31,490 bases of DNA. It comes from a virus. The stretch is taken from positions 1 through 31,490 of the IMG/VR virus record IMGVR_UViG_3300042445_001232. The stretch is one strand, 5' to 3'. The notes under the pieces are model-generated. The model saw only the letters and a program-made list of their open reading frames with translations. It did no database searches and was not told the DNA's origin. The position numbers were made by a program, and so were the translations under genes. Of the stretch, positions 6,985-20,071 are shown piece after piece. Positions within the stretch are counted from its first letter, which is position 1; every line of letters begins with the position of its first letter.

Positions 6985-7056
6985 ATAGACGGGAAGTGTA
7001 GAAATACACTTTTGGTTGGTTTCCCTCGGAGGTGGTGTTCCGGGGGATTTTTTTTT
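6985..7056 (+). ncRNA. Putative small structured RNA between resolvase and primase genes
   Basis: About 72 bases that hold no convincing gene form two clear hairpins. The first is AAGTGTA-GAAA-TACACTT (6994-7011), a 7-bp stem with a GNRA-type tetraloop. The second is TCCCTCGGA/TCCGGGGGA (7022-7047), a 9-bp stem with one G-U pair, followed by nine T. A promoter-like motif precedes it. GGGAA at 6991-6995 can also pair with TTCCC at 7021-7025, competing with the terminator stem, so an attenuator-like switch is possible. It may be an independent regulatory RNA or simply the 3' end of the upstream mRNA. No known RNA family was recognised. Confidence 0.5.
7022..7056 (+). terminator. Rho-independent terminator
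   Basis: The stem TCCCTCGGA (7022-7030) pairs with TCCGGGGGA (7039-7047) across an 8-base loop, with one G-U wobble, and is followed by nine T (7048-7056). This is the strongest intrinsic terminator in the window; it separates the structural/resolvase transcript from the primase operon. Confidence 0.85.
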
Positions 7057-8024: not shown

Positions 8025-8885
8025 ATGAATTTAAACGACATCTCATTAGAGATTAAGGATTTATTAGAACAAAGAAGAAAAGAAATTGAATTAACTTTTA
8101 TTGAGGAGGAACACATCTATTTTATGAAAGATGTGGATGGTGTGGTGAAGAAAAATTTCCCGTCAGTATCTAAGATTATAAAGAAATTTCATAAAGCGTT
8201 TGATGCTGAAGGTATGGCATTAAAAATGTCTAAAGGTGACCCTGAGGGGCAAGCAGAATTGCTTGCGGAATGGAAACGAGCAGGTGACCTATCAACCAAT
8301 ATGGGTAGTCGTGTTCACTTTGAATTAGAAAGTGATACGATTTCTCGATTCGGGAATTACAAATCAGTTAGAGAACCAATCTTTAACATTAATGAGGAAC
8401 AACAACGTAAGAGTGATAATATGATTATTGCGGGGAAACAATTCCTTGATTTAATGTTAGAACGAGGTGGAGTATTATTGGATACTGAGATTGTATTGGG
8501 TGACCCTGAAGAACAATATACTGGTCAACCAGATAAAGTGTGGTTAATGATGAACAAAGAGAAAACCAACTTTGGATTCGTTACCACAGATTGGAAAACA
8601 AATCAACCAAAGAACTTTGAGGTTCAACATTATACGGGTAAATTATATCCACCATTTAACAATTACCACGATAATGCATTAGGTCATTATTTCTTACAAT
8701 TACCATTATATGGTAGGTTATTATTAAAAATGTTAAAGGGTACCAAGTTTGAAGATACAAAGATATTGGGAAATGTTATTGTTTTATTAAAAGAAGATGG
8801 TACATTTAACGAATATAAAGTTCCACCACAAATCAATAATGCAATTTTAACGATGGACTTATCAAATTATATTAAAAGATGGTAA
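8025..8885 (+). CDS. PD-(D/E)XK nuclease, Cas4/RecB-like exonuclease
   Basis: This 286-residue nuclease of the RecB/Cas4-like family probably degrades or resects DNA ends during replication or recombination. Visible motifs are a family-type His (H98 in MGSRVHFELE), E155, D170 in TGQPDKVWL, the D189-W-K191 core in TTDWKTNQ, and a Gln/Tyr motif (HYFLQLPLYGRLL, about 221-233). The start is taken at ATG 8025, one base after the primase stop; an in-frame TTG at 8016 is less likely. The end overlaps the gp47 start by 7 bases (ATGGTAA), indicating one operon. A single-strand exonuclease role is inferred. Confidence 0.78.
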   Translation: MNLNDISLEIKDLLEQRRKEIELTFIEEEHIYFMKDVDGVVKKNFPSVSKIIKKFHKAFDAEGMALKMSKGDPEGQAELLAEWKRAGDLSTNMGSRVHFELESDTISRFGNYKSVREPIFNINEEQQRKSDNMIIAGKQFLDLMLERGGVLLDTEIVLGDPEEQYTGQPDKVWLMMNKEKTNFGFVTTDWKTNQPKNFEVQHYTGKLYPPFNNYHDNALGHYFLQLPLYGRLLLKMLKGTKFEDTKILGNVIVLLKEDGTFNEYKVPPQINNAILTMDLSNYIKRW

Positions 8886-9703
8886 AAAAAATTATACATA
8901 TTGCCGACTTACATATTCGTACAATTCAAATGCACGATTTGTATAGAGAACAATTCGAAATATTATTAAATGAATTAAGTGTAAAATTCTTAGAATGGGC
9001 GGATGAAAATATATCGCATAACGAAATTAGAATTGTTATTGCGGGTGATATCGCACATCAAAAAATTAATATCTCAAATGAACAATTATTATTAACGAGT
9101 TGGTTTTTAAAAGAGTTAACTCGTTTTGGTAAGGTTGTAATCATACCGGGTAATCACGATTTCTTGGAGAATAATACGCAACGTATGGATAGTATAACAC
9201 CAGTCGTTCAATTATTAGACAATCAACACATCACATACCTAAAAGATAGTGGTGATTATGTTGATACCGATGGTAGCGTTCAATGGGTTGTTTATTCATT
9301 ATATCAACACAACGTAAGACCTGAATTTACAAAACAAGAAGGTTTATTAACGGTTGGACTGTTCCATGGACCTATCATGGGATTGTCAACTGATTTAGGA
9401 TTTGAATTTGAAGATGCGTACGATAGACTAAATTTTAATGATTTAGATTTACTACTATGTGGAGACATTCACAAAAGACAACAATTCACATTACCAAACG
9501 GAGGGAAAGCGATTATGGTTGGTAGTCTTATACAACAGAACTTTGGTGAAACGGTTAAACATCATGGGTATGGAATATATGATGTACAAACAGATGAATA
9601 TACATTTCACGATTTACCAAATGAACAACCATTCCTACACTTTAGAATAAACGATATCAAAGACATTGAAAATGAAACCGAAGAGCACGTTAATCTTGGA
9701 TAA
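8879..9703 (+). CDS. 47: Recombination endonuclease gp47-like (Mre11/SbcD)
   Basis: This 274-residue calcineurin-type phosphoesterase is the nuclease subunit of the gp46/gp47 (Rad50/Mre11, SbcC/SbcD) complex, which processes double-strand ends for recombination-dependent replication. All metal-binding motifs are seen: D10-x-H12 (IADLHIR), G-D57 with H60 (IAGDIAH), GNHD at 91-94, H163 (LFHGP) and G-D196-x-H198 (CGDIHK). There is no long C-terminal capping domain, as in the short phage forms. It overlaps the nuclease gene upstream by 7 bases and the next gene by 32 bases. The partner gp46 lies three genes downstream. Symbol follows T4 usage. Confidence 0.9.
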   Translation: MVKKIIHIADLHIRTIQMHDLYREQFEILLNELSVKFLEWADENISHNEIRIVIAGDIAHQKINISNEQLLLTSWFLKELTRFGKVVIIPGNHDFLENNTQRMDSITPVVQLLDNQHITYLKDSGDYVDTDGSVQWVVYSLYQHNVRPEFTKQEGLLTVGLFHGPIMGLSTDLGFEFEDAYDRLNFNDLDLLLCGDIHKRQQFTLPNGGKAIMVGSLIQQNFGETVKHHGYGIYDVQTDEYTFHDLPNEQPFLHFRINDIKDIENETEEHVNLG

Positions 9704-10500: not shown

Positions 10501-11130
10501 ATGGGAAATTTCATATACGAAAGAATTGAAGACGGAGTAAAAAAAGATAAGTATAATGACTTAAAAATGAGAGAGACGTGGATTAAATTCGCGGAAGAAG
10601 TTTTAGGTAAAAAATTTATACATGGAACCGAAAAGGGTATTGATAATTTATTTGAAGATGGTACTTATGGTGCGGAAGGAGAAAATGCATTATGGAGTGG
10701 AGATAGATGGGTGAGCAACCAAAGGGATAGATTTGGATTGGGCATCAACACACTCAATATGCCAAATAGAAAATGGTTTTATTTTGGATTAGGTGAATTG
10801 TCTGAAAAGAACACATTTCAATATCGTATTATTTCACATGTGGGATTTGAAAAAAATATTTATTATAGGTTCAACGCAGAAATGGACCAATTAATTGTTG
10901 TATATAGCGATACGATTAGAGATTTTACTAAAATTAAATTTGCATTTGATCGTAAAGTTAATAACTCATATGAAGCTGAGGATTGGATATGTATACCACA
11001 AGAGTTTTGTTTTACTTATAATAAACAACGAGATGGTAAATGGGTTTTAAATGGACCATATTGTGGTTTAACTGAGGAAGAAAAGAGACAAAGAGTTGCA
11101 GAAGTTGCAAATAAAATTTTTAGTAAATAA
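10501..11130 (+). CDS. Hypothetical protein between gp47 and gp46
   Basis: This 209-residue soluble protein starts at ATG 10501 and is not recognised. It is rich in aromatic residues (several Trp and Phe), with a mid-protein stretch GINTLNMPNRKWFYFGLGEL (about 80-99) and a helical, basic C-terminus. It has no signal peptide, membrane segment or clear nuclease motif. Its stop codon shares a base with the gp46 start (TAATG at 11128-11132), so the two are probably co-translated. That coupling suggests, without proving, a function with the gp46/gp47 complex. Confidence 0.6.
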   Translation: MGNFIYERIEDGVKKDKYNDLKMRETWIKFAEEVLGKKFIHGTEKGIDNLFEDGTYGAEGENALWSGDRWVSNQRDRFGLGINTLNMPNRKWFYFGLGELSEKNTFQYRIISHVGFEKNIYYRFNAEMDQLIVVYSDTIRDFTKIKFAFDRKVNNSYEAEDWICIPQEFCFTYNKQRDGKWVLNGPYCGLTEEEKRQRVAEVANKIFSK

Positions 11131-13463
11131 TGAATCCATTCATAAAAGTAACGTGGGAAGACGTACCAGAGAATTTCACCCCTGAGAAAATCAGAAGGGT
11201 GAAATCCTATTTTCAAGAGAAGTATAAATCAAAAAATATTTCAGTAATTACAAAGAATCTATTAAACGTTAATAGAACACGTTTAGAATCTTTAGAGGTT
11301 AGTGACAATATACTTGACCACCAGCACCAAAAAAACTTAATGAAGGATTTTATTAAGGATAATAGTATTGATATTAAATGGGAATTGGTTGACAGATTAG
11401 ATAATAGAGTAAATTCACAAATAGATAAGTTAAATGAAAACAAAGTCAGATACAACAAATGGTTTATTAAAAGAATTGAGTTTTCTAATTTTTTATCTTT
11501 CGGTGATAACAATATTATTAACTTTGTCGATCTCGAAGGTATTACAGTAATTGAATCTACACCTAAAAACTTTGGAGGTAAGTCAACATCATCAGTTGAC
11601 CTTTTAATGTTTTTATTTTTTAATGCAACAACAAAGACAAAAACTAATGCTGAAATCTTTAATAGATTTACAGATAAGAATGATGTTAGTGTTCGTGGTG
11701 AGATTAGTATCGATGGAGATGATTATGTAATTGAGAGAAAGACTTCTCGTAAAATGAGTAAGTCGGGAGAATATACGATTAAAAACGAATTAGAATTCTA
11801 TAAGAAAAAAGAAGACGGAACGATTGAAAATTTATCTGGTGAACAACGTAGAGAAACAGAGGCGTTCATTTCTTCAGCAATCGGTACGGAGGAGGATTTT
11901 CTTTCTACAATTCTAACAACTGGTTATAATCTCGAAGAGTTAATTGAATCTAAACCAACGGCTCGTGGACAAATCCTAACAAAATTTATGGGATTGGAGA
12001 GTCTTAAACTTAAAGAAGAATTTGCTAAGGAGATTTATAACGATTGGAGTAAAAAATTAATTTCTAACACGTATAACATTACCCAATTAGAGATTGATAA
12101 TGGAACGTATAACGATAGTATAACTAATTCCGAAGAACAACTAATTACTTTAGATAATCAATTAGCCGAATATAGCAAAACACTTAAACGTTTAGAAGGT
12201 GAAAGAGATGGTGCATTATCTTCAAGAAACAATGATGTTGACAGAGAATTAATTAATACCAACCCAACTTTACTTGAAAAAGAAATTGTTGATTTAAATA
12301 AATTAAAAACAGCGAGTCAAACTAATGCCGATAACGTCAATGTAGTTGAACCTTCAAAATATTACCACGAAGACGAACACAAGGAATTAAGAGGCGAGAT
12401 GGCTAATCTTCAAGGAATCGATGTTGCGTACAAATATGAAAAGGGAGATAGGGAAAAATTGATTAAACAATTTGAAGAAGGTACTGTCTGCCCAACTTGC
12501 AATAGAGCTTTAGATGAGGTTGACCATACTGAAGAAATTGAAAAGATTAAAAAAGAAATCGAGGATATCATTAAAGAGATGGAACTAAATCAGATTCAAT
12601 TTGATTTATTAAAAGAACAATCGGAACGATTTGATACGCTAAGAACCGAATTTGACACTTACGAAAGAAACAAACTTCGTAAAGAGAGATATGAATTGGA
12701 GGTCGAACAAAAACAACTTGAGATTGATGCCAAACAATTACGTTTGGATAGATATGAAGATAATAAAAAGAAATTAGAGGATAACCAAAGAATTGATTCA
12801 TTAGTTACCGCTTTAAGGACTCAAATTGAAACGGCAAATGCCGATATTCGTGTTACTGGTACAAATATTGAAAAACACAAAAACAATATTAGTAACATGA
12901 ATGATAAAATTGGTATTAATAATGATTTGATTGGTAAGATTAAATCAGAACAGGAATTACTTGCGGTATTTAAAATTTACTTAACGATATATGGTAAAAA
13001 TGGTATATCTAAAGTAATCATGAAAAACATGATTCCGTTGATTAACCAAGAATTATATAGGTTACTTGTTGATAGTTGTCATTTCATATTAGAATTGAAT
13101 GTAACCGATAAGAATGAGGTTGAATTTATTATGATAGATACTGAGACTCGTGTTGCTAAACCCCTTAATTCGGGTTCTGGTTACGAAAGAACGATATCCT
13201 CATTAGCGTTACGTAGTGTCCTAACTAAAATATCATCACTACCAAAGCCTAACATCGTTGTAATGGATGAAGTCTTTGGTAAAATTGCAGATGAAAACCT
13301 TGAAATGGTTGGTGAATTTTTTAAGAAAATTAAAAGTTATTTTGACCATATATTAGTAATATCACATAATTCTTTAATCCGTAACTGGTCGGATAACATT
13401 ATTATGATTAAAAAAGAGGAGAACGTATCCTCAATAGATTTTATTACAACTAAGATTTCTTAA
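11130..13463 (+). CDS. 46: Recombination endonuclease gp46-like (Rad50/SbcC ATPase)
   Basis: This 777-residue SMC-like ATPase is the partner of gp47. The ATPase N-lobe begins only near residue 120 (IEFSNFLSFGDNN). The nucleotide loop is at about 145-153 (PKNFGGKST; K151, S152), where the first Gly of the usual GxxxxGKS is replaced by Pro. Long coiled coils flank a zinc hook CPTC (C454, C457). The C-lobe has the signature SGSGYERTISSLALR and a Walker B with D713-E714 (VVMDE). The roughly 120-residue N-terminal extension before the ATPase is unusual. It ends overlapping the convergent exonuclease gene by 4 bases. Confidence 0.9.
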   Translation: MNPFIKVTWEDVPENFTPEKIRRVKSYFQEKYKSKNISVITKNLLNVNRTRLESLEVSDNILDHQHQKNLMKDFIKDNSIDIKWELVDRLDNRVNSQIDKLNENKVRYNKWFIKRIEFSNFLSFGDNNIINFVDLEGITVIESTPKNFGGKSTSSVDLLMFLFFNATTKTKTNAEIFNRFTDKNDVSVRGEISIDGDDYVIERKTSRKMSKSGEYTIKNELEFYKKKEDGTIENLSGEQRRETEAFISSAIGTEEDFLSTILTTGYNLEELIESKPTARGQILTKFMGLESLKLKEEFAKEIYNDWSKKLISNTYNITQLEIDNGTYNDSITNSEEQLITLDNQLAEYSKTLKRLEGERDGALSSRNNDVDRELINTNPTLLEKEIVDLNKLKTASQTNADNVNVVEPSKYYHEDEHKELRGEMANLQGIDVAYKYEKGDREKLIKQFEEGTVCPTCNRALDEVDHTEEIEKIKKEIEDIIKEMELNQIQFDLLKEQSERFDTLRTEFDTYERNKLRKERYELEVEQKQLEIDAKQLRLDRYEDNKKKLEDNQRIDSLVTALRTQIETANADIRVTGTNIEKHKNNISNMNDKIGINNDLIGKIKSEQELLAVFKIYLTIYGKNGISKVIMKNMIPLINQELYRLLVDSCHFILELNVTDKNEVEFIMIDTETRVAKPLNSGSGYERTISSLALRSVLTKISSLPKPNIVVMDEVFGKIADENLEMVGEFFKKIKSYFDHILVISHNSLIRNWSDNIIMIKKEENVSSIDFITTKIS

Positions 13464-14343: not shown

Positions 14344-15018
14344 ATGACACCAAAAGATTATCAAGGTTTCGGTCTATATGCTAAAGACCATGGGGTGAGT
14401 TCATTAGACTTACATCGTTACAATCAACAAGTTGAAAACAGCTTAACTCCATATATTTTGGAAGAAAGACAAATGAATGTGACAATTATGGACGTATTTT
14501 CACGTTTAATGATGGAACGTATTATTTGGGTCGCTGGCGAAGTAAATGACCACATGTCAACAATTGTACAGGCACAATTGATGTTTTTGGATAGTTTAGA
14601 TAACTTGGATATTACCATGCACATCGATAGTCCTGGTGGAAGTGTTAAGTCGGGGTTATCTATGGTAGATGTTATGGATTATATCAATTCAGATATTCGT
14701 ACCATTAACACGGGTATGGCGGCTTCAATGGGTTCAGTCCTACTTGGGGCGGGAACTAAAGGTAAACGTGGTTCCTTGAGGTTCTCACGTACCATGTTAC
14801 ACCAATCCTCAGGAGGGGCGGGTGGAAATATTCAAGACGCTCGTATCACATTCCAAGAGTGGGAAAAGGTTAATGACACCTTATTTGAGTTATTGGGCGG
14901 TTATTGTGGAAAGTCCGCAGAACAGGTCAAATCTGACGCGTCCCGAGACTTATGGTTAGGGGCGGACGAAGCACTATCCTACGGAATTATCGATGAAATC
15001 GTGAAGAAGAAGAAATAA
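14344..15018 (+). CDS. clpP: ClpP-family serine protease
   Basis: This 224-residue ClpP-fold peptidase has an intact Ser-His-Asp triad: S128 in GMAASMGS, H153 in TMLHQSSGG and D202 in SRDLWLGADEA. The usual HIDSPGGSV segment that shapes the oxyanion hole is present at 93-101. An N-terminal extension of about 30-40 residues precedes the fold. No ClpX/ClpA-type partner is seen in the window. It might use host chaperones to degrade or reshape host proteins, or be a virion-maturation protease; the absence of head genes next to it leaves that open. Its base composition is somewhat more G-rich than its neighbours. The gene is monocistronic, between its own promoter and a terminator. Confidence 0.88.
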   Translation: MTPKDYQGFGLYAKDHGVSSLDLHRYNQQVENSLTPYILEERQMNVTIMDVFSRLMMERIIWVAGEVNDHMSTIVQAQLMFLDSLDNLDITMHIDSPGGSVKSGLSMVDVMDYINSDIRTINTGMAASMGSVLLGAGTKGKRGSLRFSRTMLHQSSGGAGGNIQDARITFQEWEKVNDTLFELLGGYCGKSAEQVKSDASRDLWLGADEALSYGIIDEIVKKKK

Positions 15019-17737: not shown

Positions 17738-19195
17738 ATGGAAAAAAATTGGTTAAAATACTTAGTGGCATTATCGGCAATTTTAATTGCGGGTAGTGCT
17801 GCATATTTTTCAGTAACTGGATTGGGGGTACTATTTAGTGGTGCTGCGGTTGCAGTTATGGTTATGGCAAGTTCTTTAGAATTGGCGAAAATTGTTTCGG
17901 CAACTTATTTAAAACAAAAATGGAATGAGATAAAAGGATTCAATAAATGGTACCTATCATTTTCTGTGGGAATTTTAATGTTAATCACATCAGCGGGTAT
18001 TTTTGGATATCTTTCAAATGCGTTTCAACAACAAAATCTTGCATTACAACAAGTCGATAGAGAATTATTAATTCACACAACAAAGATTCAACAGAACGAA
18101 GCACAAATAAAACAACTATCAACACAAATTACGGAATTTAATTCTAATCAAGGTAAGATTATTGATGGTGGTAAAGTTAATTCACGTTTACTCCGTTCAA
18201 TAGATAATAGAGATAAACAAATTGCAAAACTTAATGACAACATATCTTTATTACAACAAGATAACGCAAAAGAAAATGATGAGATTAATAAAATTAAAAC
18301 TGAAAACTTAGGACTTGAAAAGGAAGTTGGGGGGTTTAGATTTGTTGCTGAGGCGTTTGGTGTTGAATTAAACAGTGTCGTTAAATTTTTTATCATTTTA
18401 ATTGTAATTGTATTTGACCCATTGGCAATTGCTCTGATTATCGCATTTAATCAATTGGTTATGAGAGGTAAAGATGATGAATCAACACCCGAAGATTTAA
18501 AAAACTTTGTTGATGAAACCACAAGAGTACATTTATCAGAAAATGATTTAAAAATATTAGAAGATGCGTTACTAAACAAAACGGAACCAAACGAAAAATT
18601 AAAATCGGCATCTGAGGAATATAAACGAAGGGGAGAGTTATTATCTGAAATTATGAAGAACGACCAAGAGTTGGGATTATATGATGAACCATTTGATGAC
18701 GAATTAATTAAAGAGGTTGAATATGCGTTTAAAAAAGAAATGGAGTCAGTCGCACCATTTGGAGAGAGGTATGATTTGGACGATGATATCTCTCATTGGG
18801 ACGGAACATTAATGGACGGATTAGAGGATGAGGAACCATTCTTTACTGAAGAAGAAGTAGAGAAAATTTTACAAGAAGAACCAACAGAAGAAGAAATTCA
18901 GGAAAATTTTTCCACTATAACACCAAATACGGAGAATATTTTCCAAAATGAGAATTATTTAACCGAGGCAATTAATGAGTTTAATCAAGAATCGATGGAA
19001 GATGGATGGGATGAAGAAATGGAAAAACGCTATTGGGAAGAACAAGTACCCAACCCATCTGTGACACCCGAAGAGTCAACCGACGAACCTGTTTATCAGT
19101 CAGAAATTAAAGAGATTGATGTAATGTTAAAAGTGGTTAACGACGCAATTGACCAAAACACATCATCCGATTCTGATGATGAAAAAAAAAAGTAG
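17738..19195 (+). CDS. Multi-pass membrane protein with coiled coil and acidic tail (zero-frame product)
   Basis: This 485-residue protein has membrane segments at about 7-27, 30-48, 72-93 and 214-238. A long coiled coil lies between the third and fourth (95-195), and a 245-residue acidic tail (many Asp/Glu) follows. Four helices place the tail and both ends on the same side, probably cytoplasmic. No family was recognised. Possible roles are pore formation, a membrane-remodelling scaffold or a channel for virion assembly. The zero frame ends in Lys-Lys-Lys-stop on a run of ten A, which forms the slippery heptamer A AAA AAG at 19186-19192; the frame one base back stays open for 84 more codons. 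See the extension entry. Confidence 0.75.
   Translation: MEKNWLKYLVALSAILIAGSAAYFSVTGLGVLFSGAAVAVMVMASSLELAKIVSATYLKQKWNEIKGFNKWYLSFSVGILMLITSAGIFGYLSNAFQQQNLALQQVDRELLIHTTKIQQNEAQIKQLSTQITEFNSNQGKIIDGGKVNSRLLRSIDNRDKQIAKLNDNISLLQQDNAKENDEINKIKTENLGLEKEVGGFRFVAEAFGVELNSVVKFFIILIVIVFDPLAIALIIAFNQLVMRGKDDESTPEDLKNFVDETTRVHLSENDLKILEDALLNKTEPNEKLKSASEEYKRRGELLSEIMKNDQELGLYDEPFDDELIKEVEYAFKKEMESVAPFGERYDLDDDISHWDGTLMDGLEDEEPFFTEEEVEKILQEEPTEEEIQENFSTITPNTENIFQNENYLTEAINEFNQESMEDGWDEEMEKRYWEEQVPNPSVTPEESTDEPVYQSEIKEIDVMLKVVNDAIDQNTSSDSDDEKKK
19186..19192 (+). promoter_or_regulatory. Candidate programmed -1 frameshift site (A AAA AAG)
   Basis: Within A10-G (19182-19192) the heptamer A AAA AAG is in register with the zero frame and is immediately followed by TAG. 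It is the same heptamer used in the E. coli dnaX -1 frameshift. A tract of ten A could also allow transcriptional slippage. Downstream pairings are weak: AACCCAA (19227-19233) with TTGGGTT (19247-19253), or AACCCCAA (19202-19209) with the same partner. An indel error in the homopolymer is the main alternative. Confidence 0.6.
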
Positions 19196-19446
19196 AATCA
19201 GAACCCCAAACACAGGAATTAAATTTAACCCAATCATCGAGTAACCTTGGGTTTTCAAATATAGGAACACATATTCCTTTTTATTACGGACACGGACCGA
19301 ATAAAAGAAAGAACGTTAAACAATATGATGAGGAATTATATTTGGAAAAGGATGAAATAAACCCAAATCAAGTGATTTACGATTTGGAAAATAATAAAGT
19401 TATTATACCAAATTCGGACGATGAGGTAAACAATAACACTAATTAA
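19192..19446 (+). CDS. 84-residue -1 frame extension of the membrane protein
   Basis: After a -1 shift on the A AAA AAG site, reading continues with GTA GAA TCA and runs 84 codons to TAA at 19444-19446, giving a 569-residue fusion. The segment has no ATG in frame, yet its codon use and content (for example HIPFYYGHGPNKRK, then QYDEELYLEKDEINPNQVIY) look like real protein, and it fills the otherwise empty 261 bases before the next gene. It is therefore best explained as a frameshift product, or as the true C-terminus of a single gene broken by a one-base homopolymer error. No domain was recognised in the extension. Confidence 0.65.
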   Translation, partial: VESEPQTQELNLTQSSSNLGFSNIGTHIPFYYGHGPNKRKNVKQYDEELYLEKDEINPNQVIYDLENNKVIIPNSDDEVNNNTN

Positions 19447-19456
19447 ATGTGGAACA

Positions 19457-20071
19457 ATGTCAATATATGAAATTGAAACTATTGATAATAAAAACTTAAA
19501 CATCAGTCGAAGAAAGTCTAAGAAAACACAAATATTACTATACGACACACAAAGAAGAGTTGACGATTTTATCAATATGATAAAGTATCGTAAAAATGGG
19601 ATGTATGAAGATATACCCCATTTTGTTGTTTCTAAGATGGGTGATGTTTATCAATTATTCGATACTAACCAATCATCCGAAACTTTTGGAAACCCAAAGA
19701 TTGACAATAAGATGATTAAAATTGCAATTGAGAACTTGGGTTGGCTTTCTAAAAATACTATCACTGGTATCCTTAATAATTGGATTGGCGACCCGTATAG
19801 GTCTGAACCATACATTCGTAATTGGAGGAATTATTATTTTTGGGACAAATACGGAGAAGACCAAATGAAAGCCGTTGCAAAATTATGTGAAAAATTATGT
19901 GACGAACATGGGATATTCAAACAAACCGTACCATCACAAGGATACTTAGAAAATATATCAAATTTCAAGGGAATTATATGTAAATCCAACTTTTCAAGTA
20001 TTTATACAGATATAAACCCTTCATTTAATTTTAGGGTCTTTTTTAACAATACACACGAAAATGAGAAATGA
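19457..20071 (+). CDS. Degenerate N-acetylmuramoyl-L-alanine amidase-fold protein (probable pseudoenzyme)
   Basis: This 204-residue protein has the outline of an Amidase_2/PGRP fold: a first strand ILLYDTQRR (27-34), the strand-turn IPHFVVSKMGDVYQLFD (53-69), IKIAIENLGW (87-96), a helix with DQMKAVAKLCEKLCDEHGI (135-153), and the C-terminal motif GIICKSNFS...YTDINPSFNF (172-192). In active amidases the first strand carries a zinc His and the GxxGHS motif a second one; here those places hold Tyr/Asp (29-30) and Lys (176). Only the Asp of the TD motif (D185) remains. Peptidoglycan binding without cleavage, or a structural role, is inferred. It overlaps the next gene by 11 bases. Confidence 0.6.
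   Translation: MSIYEIETIDNKNLNISRRKSKKTQILLYDTQRRVDDFINMIKYRKNGMYEDIPHFVVSKMGDVYQLFDTNQSSETFGNPKIDNKMIKIAIENLGWLSKNTITGILNNWIGDPYRSEPYIRNWRNYYFWDKYGEDQMKAVAKLCEKLCDEHGIFKQTVPSQGYLENISNFKGIICKSNFSSIYTDINPSFNFRVFFNNTHENEK

Follow-up and report, generated by a model that had tools for sequence, protein, structure and literature searches.

An A10 run abutted by a hairpin and followed by three conserved C-terminal frames in a membrane-protein gene of uncultured tailed phages

Introduction

Programmed shifts of reading frame are known in bacteria and phages, where they usually yield two products. In the dnaX gene of Thermus thermophilus a homopolymer run (A9) in the 3' part of the gene causes RNA polymerase slippage and gives a short and a long protein, and slippage at long A/T runs brings whatever lies downstream into each of the three phases (PMC1088944). 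The tssM1 gene of Citrobacter rodentium encodes an inner-membrane protein and carries an A11 run just before the stop codon; transcriptional frameshifting there extends the protein at its C-terminus, and the abstract describes two forms, both of them needed, with no mention of a third conserved frame (PMC4256274). In an insertion sequence (IS) element of Roseiflexus, slippage is stimulated by a nascent stem-loop that lies directly 5' of the slippery run. Ebola virus GP and the P gene of bovine parainfluenza 3 each use a single run to make three products, one in each frame (PMC5009743).

The locus described here is a run of ten adenines close to the 3' end of a membrane-protein gene of a DNA phage. 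It shares the position of its run with dnaX and tssM1, but has three conserved C-termini where each of these genes has two products, and unlike dnaX it carries a hairpin that abuts the run. The Roseiflexus element has a comparable stem-loop but differs in that its run is T5C5, only a one-base deletion occurs and a single extra product is made. The Ebola and parainfluenza cases have the three-frame outcome but concern RNA viruses with RNA-dependent polymerases, whereas here the A10 is in DNA. No described bacterial or phage gene with three conserved endings at a single slippage site was found in the open-access literature, and in a DNA phage such a threefold set of preserved endings appears to be undescribed.

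Results

The gene and its A run

The window analysed is a complete virus record of 31,490 bases. The membrane-protein gene lies on the plus strand at 17738..19195, and its default short form of 485 amino acids ends in DDEKKK. The 3' end of the gene reads GAT GAT GAA AAA AAA AAG TAG, with the frame 0 TAG of the short form at 19193..19195 (+). The candidate slippage run, A10 at 19182..19191 (+), is followed by a G, and no other A run in the window reaches nine. A single T run does so, a T9 at 7048-7056, near the start of a primase-like ORF at 7016. The original prediction had the 485-codon frame ending at TAG right after an in-register A AAA AAG (19186-19192), and the −1 frame open for 84 codons to 19446, with no ATG of its own and filling the gap before the next gene. 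These coordinates were confirmed; the 84 residues contain no methionine and stop 10 nt before the next ORF.

Judged by eye for helix count and topology, the short form has about four predicted transmembrane helices with a coiled-coil loop, and the membrane part is followed by an acidic cytosolic tail that is probably disordered. The short form gave no match in PHROGs or Pfam at default thresholds, and AF2 models of both N-terminal module types found among the relatives were helical and of low confidence (mean pLDDT 52-55). Elsewhere the window encodes a ClpP-like protein (14344-15018; PF00574; PHROG head maturation protease) and an SbcD/SbcC-like pair (8879-9703, 11130-13463). The next gene downstream, at 19457..20071 (+), encodes an endolysin-like Amidase_2 protein (PF01510, E 4.4e-8).

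Conservation of the run

Scans of IMG/VR used as queries the protein, its extension, its tail and the amidase encoded downstream, and loci with an A run of at least nine near the amidase were retained. This gave 112 loci representing 54 distinct lineages; the lineages are related, so counts over them are not independent. The run at the equivalent site was A9 in one lineage, A10 in 44 and A11 in nine, accounting for all 54. One of the 80 amidase-anchored loci failed, L139, which has A8 and no extension, the cassette having been lost. Because A9, A10 or A11 is kept in 54 loci while only three other A or T runs of at least ten occur in the 590,692 bases of representative loci, the conserved run and extension are, on sequence grounds, not a product of chance. 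Two of those three other runs lie within this gene, 5' of the main run, as A10 at L143:4578 and L128:4260; in L143 the context of the second A10 is again EEKKN-like, and the two runs are separated by a TPTPT-rich linker.

The carriers are uncultured tailed phages and make up a large family. Named phage records searched with the tail domain and the amidase gave no match, and the scan of genome contigs gave no relative at first and, on a second scan, one weak match to a Bacteroidetes MAG fragment.

Three C-terminal endings

Comparison of the lineages points to three evolutionarily kept C-termini at the one run: a short ending, a long acidic tail and a basic tail. In 49 of the 54 lineages the short form stops no more than two codons after the run. 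The long tail of the window, in the −1 frame at 19192..19446 (+), comprises 84 residues that would be reached with A11 or A8; it contains the stretch VESEPQTQELNLTQ and ends at a TAA at 19444-19446. Across the lineages the long tail varies between 32 and 151 residues with a mean net charge of −7.4, and has a conserved core of YWEKDDxNPNxIIYDLENNxxIIP. Many long tails end in RNVxxxRRxFR, a motif that overlaps the amidase start and was therefore not used as independent evidence. The basic tail, in the +1 frame at 19191..19244 (+), has 17 codons and a stop and would be reached with A9 or A12. In the window it reads KKSRIRTPNTGIKFNPIIE up to the stop, or SRIRTPNTGIKFNPIIE after the KK, and includes the stretch TPNTGIKFNPIIE. 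A basic tail of 12-38 residues is found in 52 of 54 lineages (it is missing from L006 and L019), with a net charge averaging +4.5 and the recurring pieces R(V/T/P)PN(S/T)xIG, N(V/L)RIxR(F/L) and KLWFGxWG. Neither the long nor the basic tail was matched in PHROGs or Pfam.

The ending encoded by default in the genome differs between lineages, being short in 47, long in six and basic in one (L032). The six with the long tail in frame 0 are L006, L143 and a group of four (L009, L030, L128 and L146) in which the basic tail is in the −1 frame and the short stop in the +1 frame; the short stop of L143 comes late rather than promptly. Five of the seven lineages with a default other than short thus keep all three endings with the frames permuted. 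The original prediction of a short and a long form was incomplete, since the basic +1 tail makes three conserved C-termini.

Selection on the alternative frames

Selection was examined in 17 non-overlapping pairs, with each locus used once and the same substitutions placed at random as the expectation. In the segment from the run to the basic stop (203 substitutions) there were 81 nonsynonymous changes in the basic frame compared to 123.7 expected (z=−8.5), and no nonsynonymous deficit in the long or the short frame. Beyond the basic stop (335 substitutions) there were 134 nonsynonymous changes in the long frame compared to 204.1 expected, with no deficit in the basic and short frames. As judged from these substitution counts, the basic frame is under strong purifying selection up to its stop and the long frame past that stop, and since the deficits on either side are frame-specific, selection passes from one reading frame to the other at the basic stop codon. 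The extension had been predicted to be real coding sequence; the 54 lineages and the long-frame deficit (z=−10.9) support this, and indicate a conserved sequence joined by a change of frame at the A run.

Where the two frames overlap, the long frame is open yet unconstrained at the amino-acid level. The chance of an open long frame under random synonymous basic-frame codons was 0.02-0.80 per lineage, the product being about 1e-13 over 14 lineages that are related and not independent. In the opposite comparison the basic frame was open for a mean of 23.3 codons, compared to 7.3 ± 1.1 when the long-frame codons were shuffled.

A hairpin 5' of the run

Two features lie beyond those originally predicted, the conserved +1 frame at 19191-19244 and a 7-bp hairpin, CATCATC-CGATTCT-GATGATG, at 19161..19181 (+). 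The hairpin ends exactly at the start of the A run and has a P of 0.003-0.010 in the window. The null was obtained from codon shuffles that preserve local codon content, and was applied to 42 lineages with distinct upstream sequences. A run-abutting hairpin was found at P≤0.05 in 31 of the 42 (Fisher 4e-24), compared to four of 42 in a control placed 60 nt further upstream, and is absent in approximately ten. Structure directly downstream of the run was found in eight of 42 lineages (Fisher 0.036) and is not consistent. Among 12 sequences with equal spacing, four of the seven base pairs were altered on both sides; these compensatory changes gave nine double-change cells compared to 3.1 in shuffles, and none of 500 shuffles reached nine.

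An antitoxin-like segment and exchanged membrane modules

Residues 255-296 of the protein, encoded at 18500..18625 (+) within the cytosolic tail, resemble the C-terminal, toxin-neutralising half of the TacA1/DUF1778 antitoxins of GNAT toxins and align to positions 38-79 of the 80 in PF08681. The score in the window is 19.1 bits, below the curated cut-off of 21, with relatives scoring up to 27.4 bits and three of them (L006, L009 and L010; positions 36/38-79) lying above the cut-off. PF08681 was matched at E≤0.5 in 13 of 14 and 12 of 19 aligned relatives, PDB profile matches reached an E of 7e-4, and a simple pattern detects the segment in 33 of the 54 lineages, with both types of N-terminal module. 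The phage segment differs from these antitoxins in that the DNA-binding ribbon-helix-helix (PF08681 positions 1-35) is unmatched; a transmembrane sequence precedes the segment instead, so that it is fused to a membrane domain. With this arrangement the protein may act against GNAT toxins as an inhibitor held at the membrane.

Two different N-terminal membrane modules bear the same kind of tail. L052/L054 and L053/L056 have nearly identical tails and cassettes on different modules (MKHWL type and MNNNWLKYL type), a module exchange between close relatives. At L005:476-1279 the N-terminal membrane module occurs with no A run, extension or amidase, and is followed by a different C-terminal part. 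Relatives of the first module lie near lysis genes in Flavobacterium phage immuto and Pelagibacter phage Mosig, but not in Xanthomonas phage XacN1.

Discussion

The conserved run, the permuted endings and the abutting hairpin are most simply read as a programmed slippage cassette, and we consider it probable that hairpin and A run together give rise to three C-termini through slippage of RNA polymerase. Features expected of transcriptional slippage are present: a run of approximately nine or more is conserved, with L139 (A8) as the exception, coding in the alternative frames is conserved, and a hairpin stands immediately 5' of the run as in stem-loop-stimulated slippage of the Roseiflexus IS type. 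A nascent stem-loop in this position is a known stimulator of slippage (PMC5009743). Slippage by RNA polymerase at the A10 had been raised as an aside to the original prediction, and with the abutting hairpin and three frames it is judged the better explanation.

The main proposal at that time was dnaX-type −1 ribosomal frameshifting at A AAA AAG, giving a short and a long form only. The window does have the heptamer in register, and A AAA AAN occurs in most lineages with a short default. When the relatives were aligned the A run and extension proved conserved, but A AAA AAG itself was present in just six of 54 lineages. Neither kind of stimulator is general, downstream structure being confined to eight of 42 lineages and a Shine-Dalgarno-like core to 22 of 54, several of these within the hairpin stem. 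The six lineages in which the long tail is already in frame 0 still hold the A run, and the +1-frame basic tail, strongly selected and as well conserved as the long tail, is out of reach of a −1 shift. Because of the scarce heptamer, the inconsistent downstream structure and the conserved +1 product, this mechanism is disfavoured and we regard it as highly unlikely. Sliding of ribosomes in both directions on poly-A would instead produce the three proteins from a uniform mRNA, and ribosomes sliding along AAA-encoded lysine runs are described (PMC4363877). Such sliding could yield more than one frame, but it leaves the hairpin directly 5' of the run unexplained, whereas the hairpin fits the known stimulator of transcriptional slippage, and we consider sliding improbable.

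The two remaining explanations place the variation in the DNA or in the data. In phase variation, individual phages would differ in genomic run length and hence in their tail, and no slippage would occur during expression; L032 and L034, which are 98.5% identical over 8 kb with A10/A11 as the sole indel, would fit such a scheme. However, other groups of near-identical contigs keep a single run length and the defaults are not spread over the three frames, being short in 47 of 54 lineages, which leaves phase variation with very little probability. An A10 is also an error-prone motif, and it had been suggested that a one-base sequencing or assembly error splits one continuous gene. The same layout in 54 divergent lineages from many metagenomes, with a selected frame that switches at the basic stop, effectively excludes this.

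In transcriptional slippage as we infer it, RNA polymerase would meet the nascent-RNA hairpin and then the ten adenines, and would occasionally add or drop an A. The resulting mixture of mRNAs, translated in the ordinary way, would then give a common N-terminal membrane and cytosolic body with three C-termini: the short form from A10, the long acidic tail from A11 (or A8) and the short basic tail from A9 (or A12). All three endings are retained in evolution, and the genomic default varies between phages. The protein may serve as a scaffold that is anchored in the membrane, presents short binding motifs to the cytoplasm and has its C-terminus swapped by slippage; one of these motifs, the TacA-type antitoxin peptide, could neutralise host GNAT toxins.

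The position of the amidase gene offers a possible link to lysis. In every lineage the amidase starts between −35 and +24 nt from the long-frame stop. Since the long frame ends at the amidase start, ribosomes in the long frame alone would run into that start, and slippage could set the level of endolysin translation by coupling. A similar overlap is important in Shigella spa13/spa32 (PMC5009743), and translational coupling of the amidase to the long frame is put forward here as a hypothesis. The fuller reading, in which hairpin and A10 are selected for three functional slippage C-termini on an antitoxin-like membrane scaffold and the long product couples endolysin translation, is offered only tentatively.

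Conserved in at least 54 phage lineages, with selection on two alternative tails and an immediate stop besides, such a site would act in a DNA virus as a natural three-way splitter with an outcome like that of Ebola GP, and the cassette would offer a clean system for hairpin-stimulated slippage. Gene callers catch the default form only, which leaves the other two proteins unannotated. Should the TacA-like segment prove functional, the protein would also be a new kind of phage counter-toxin.
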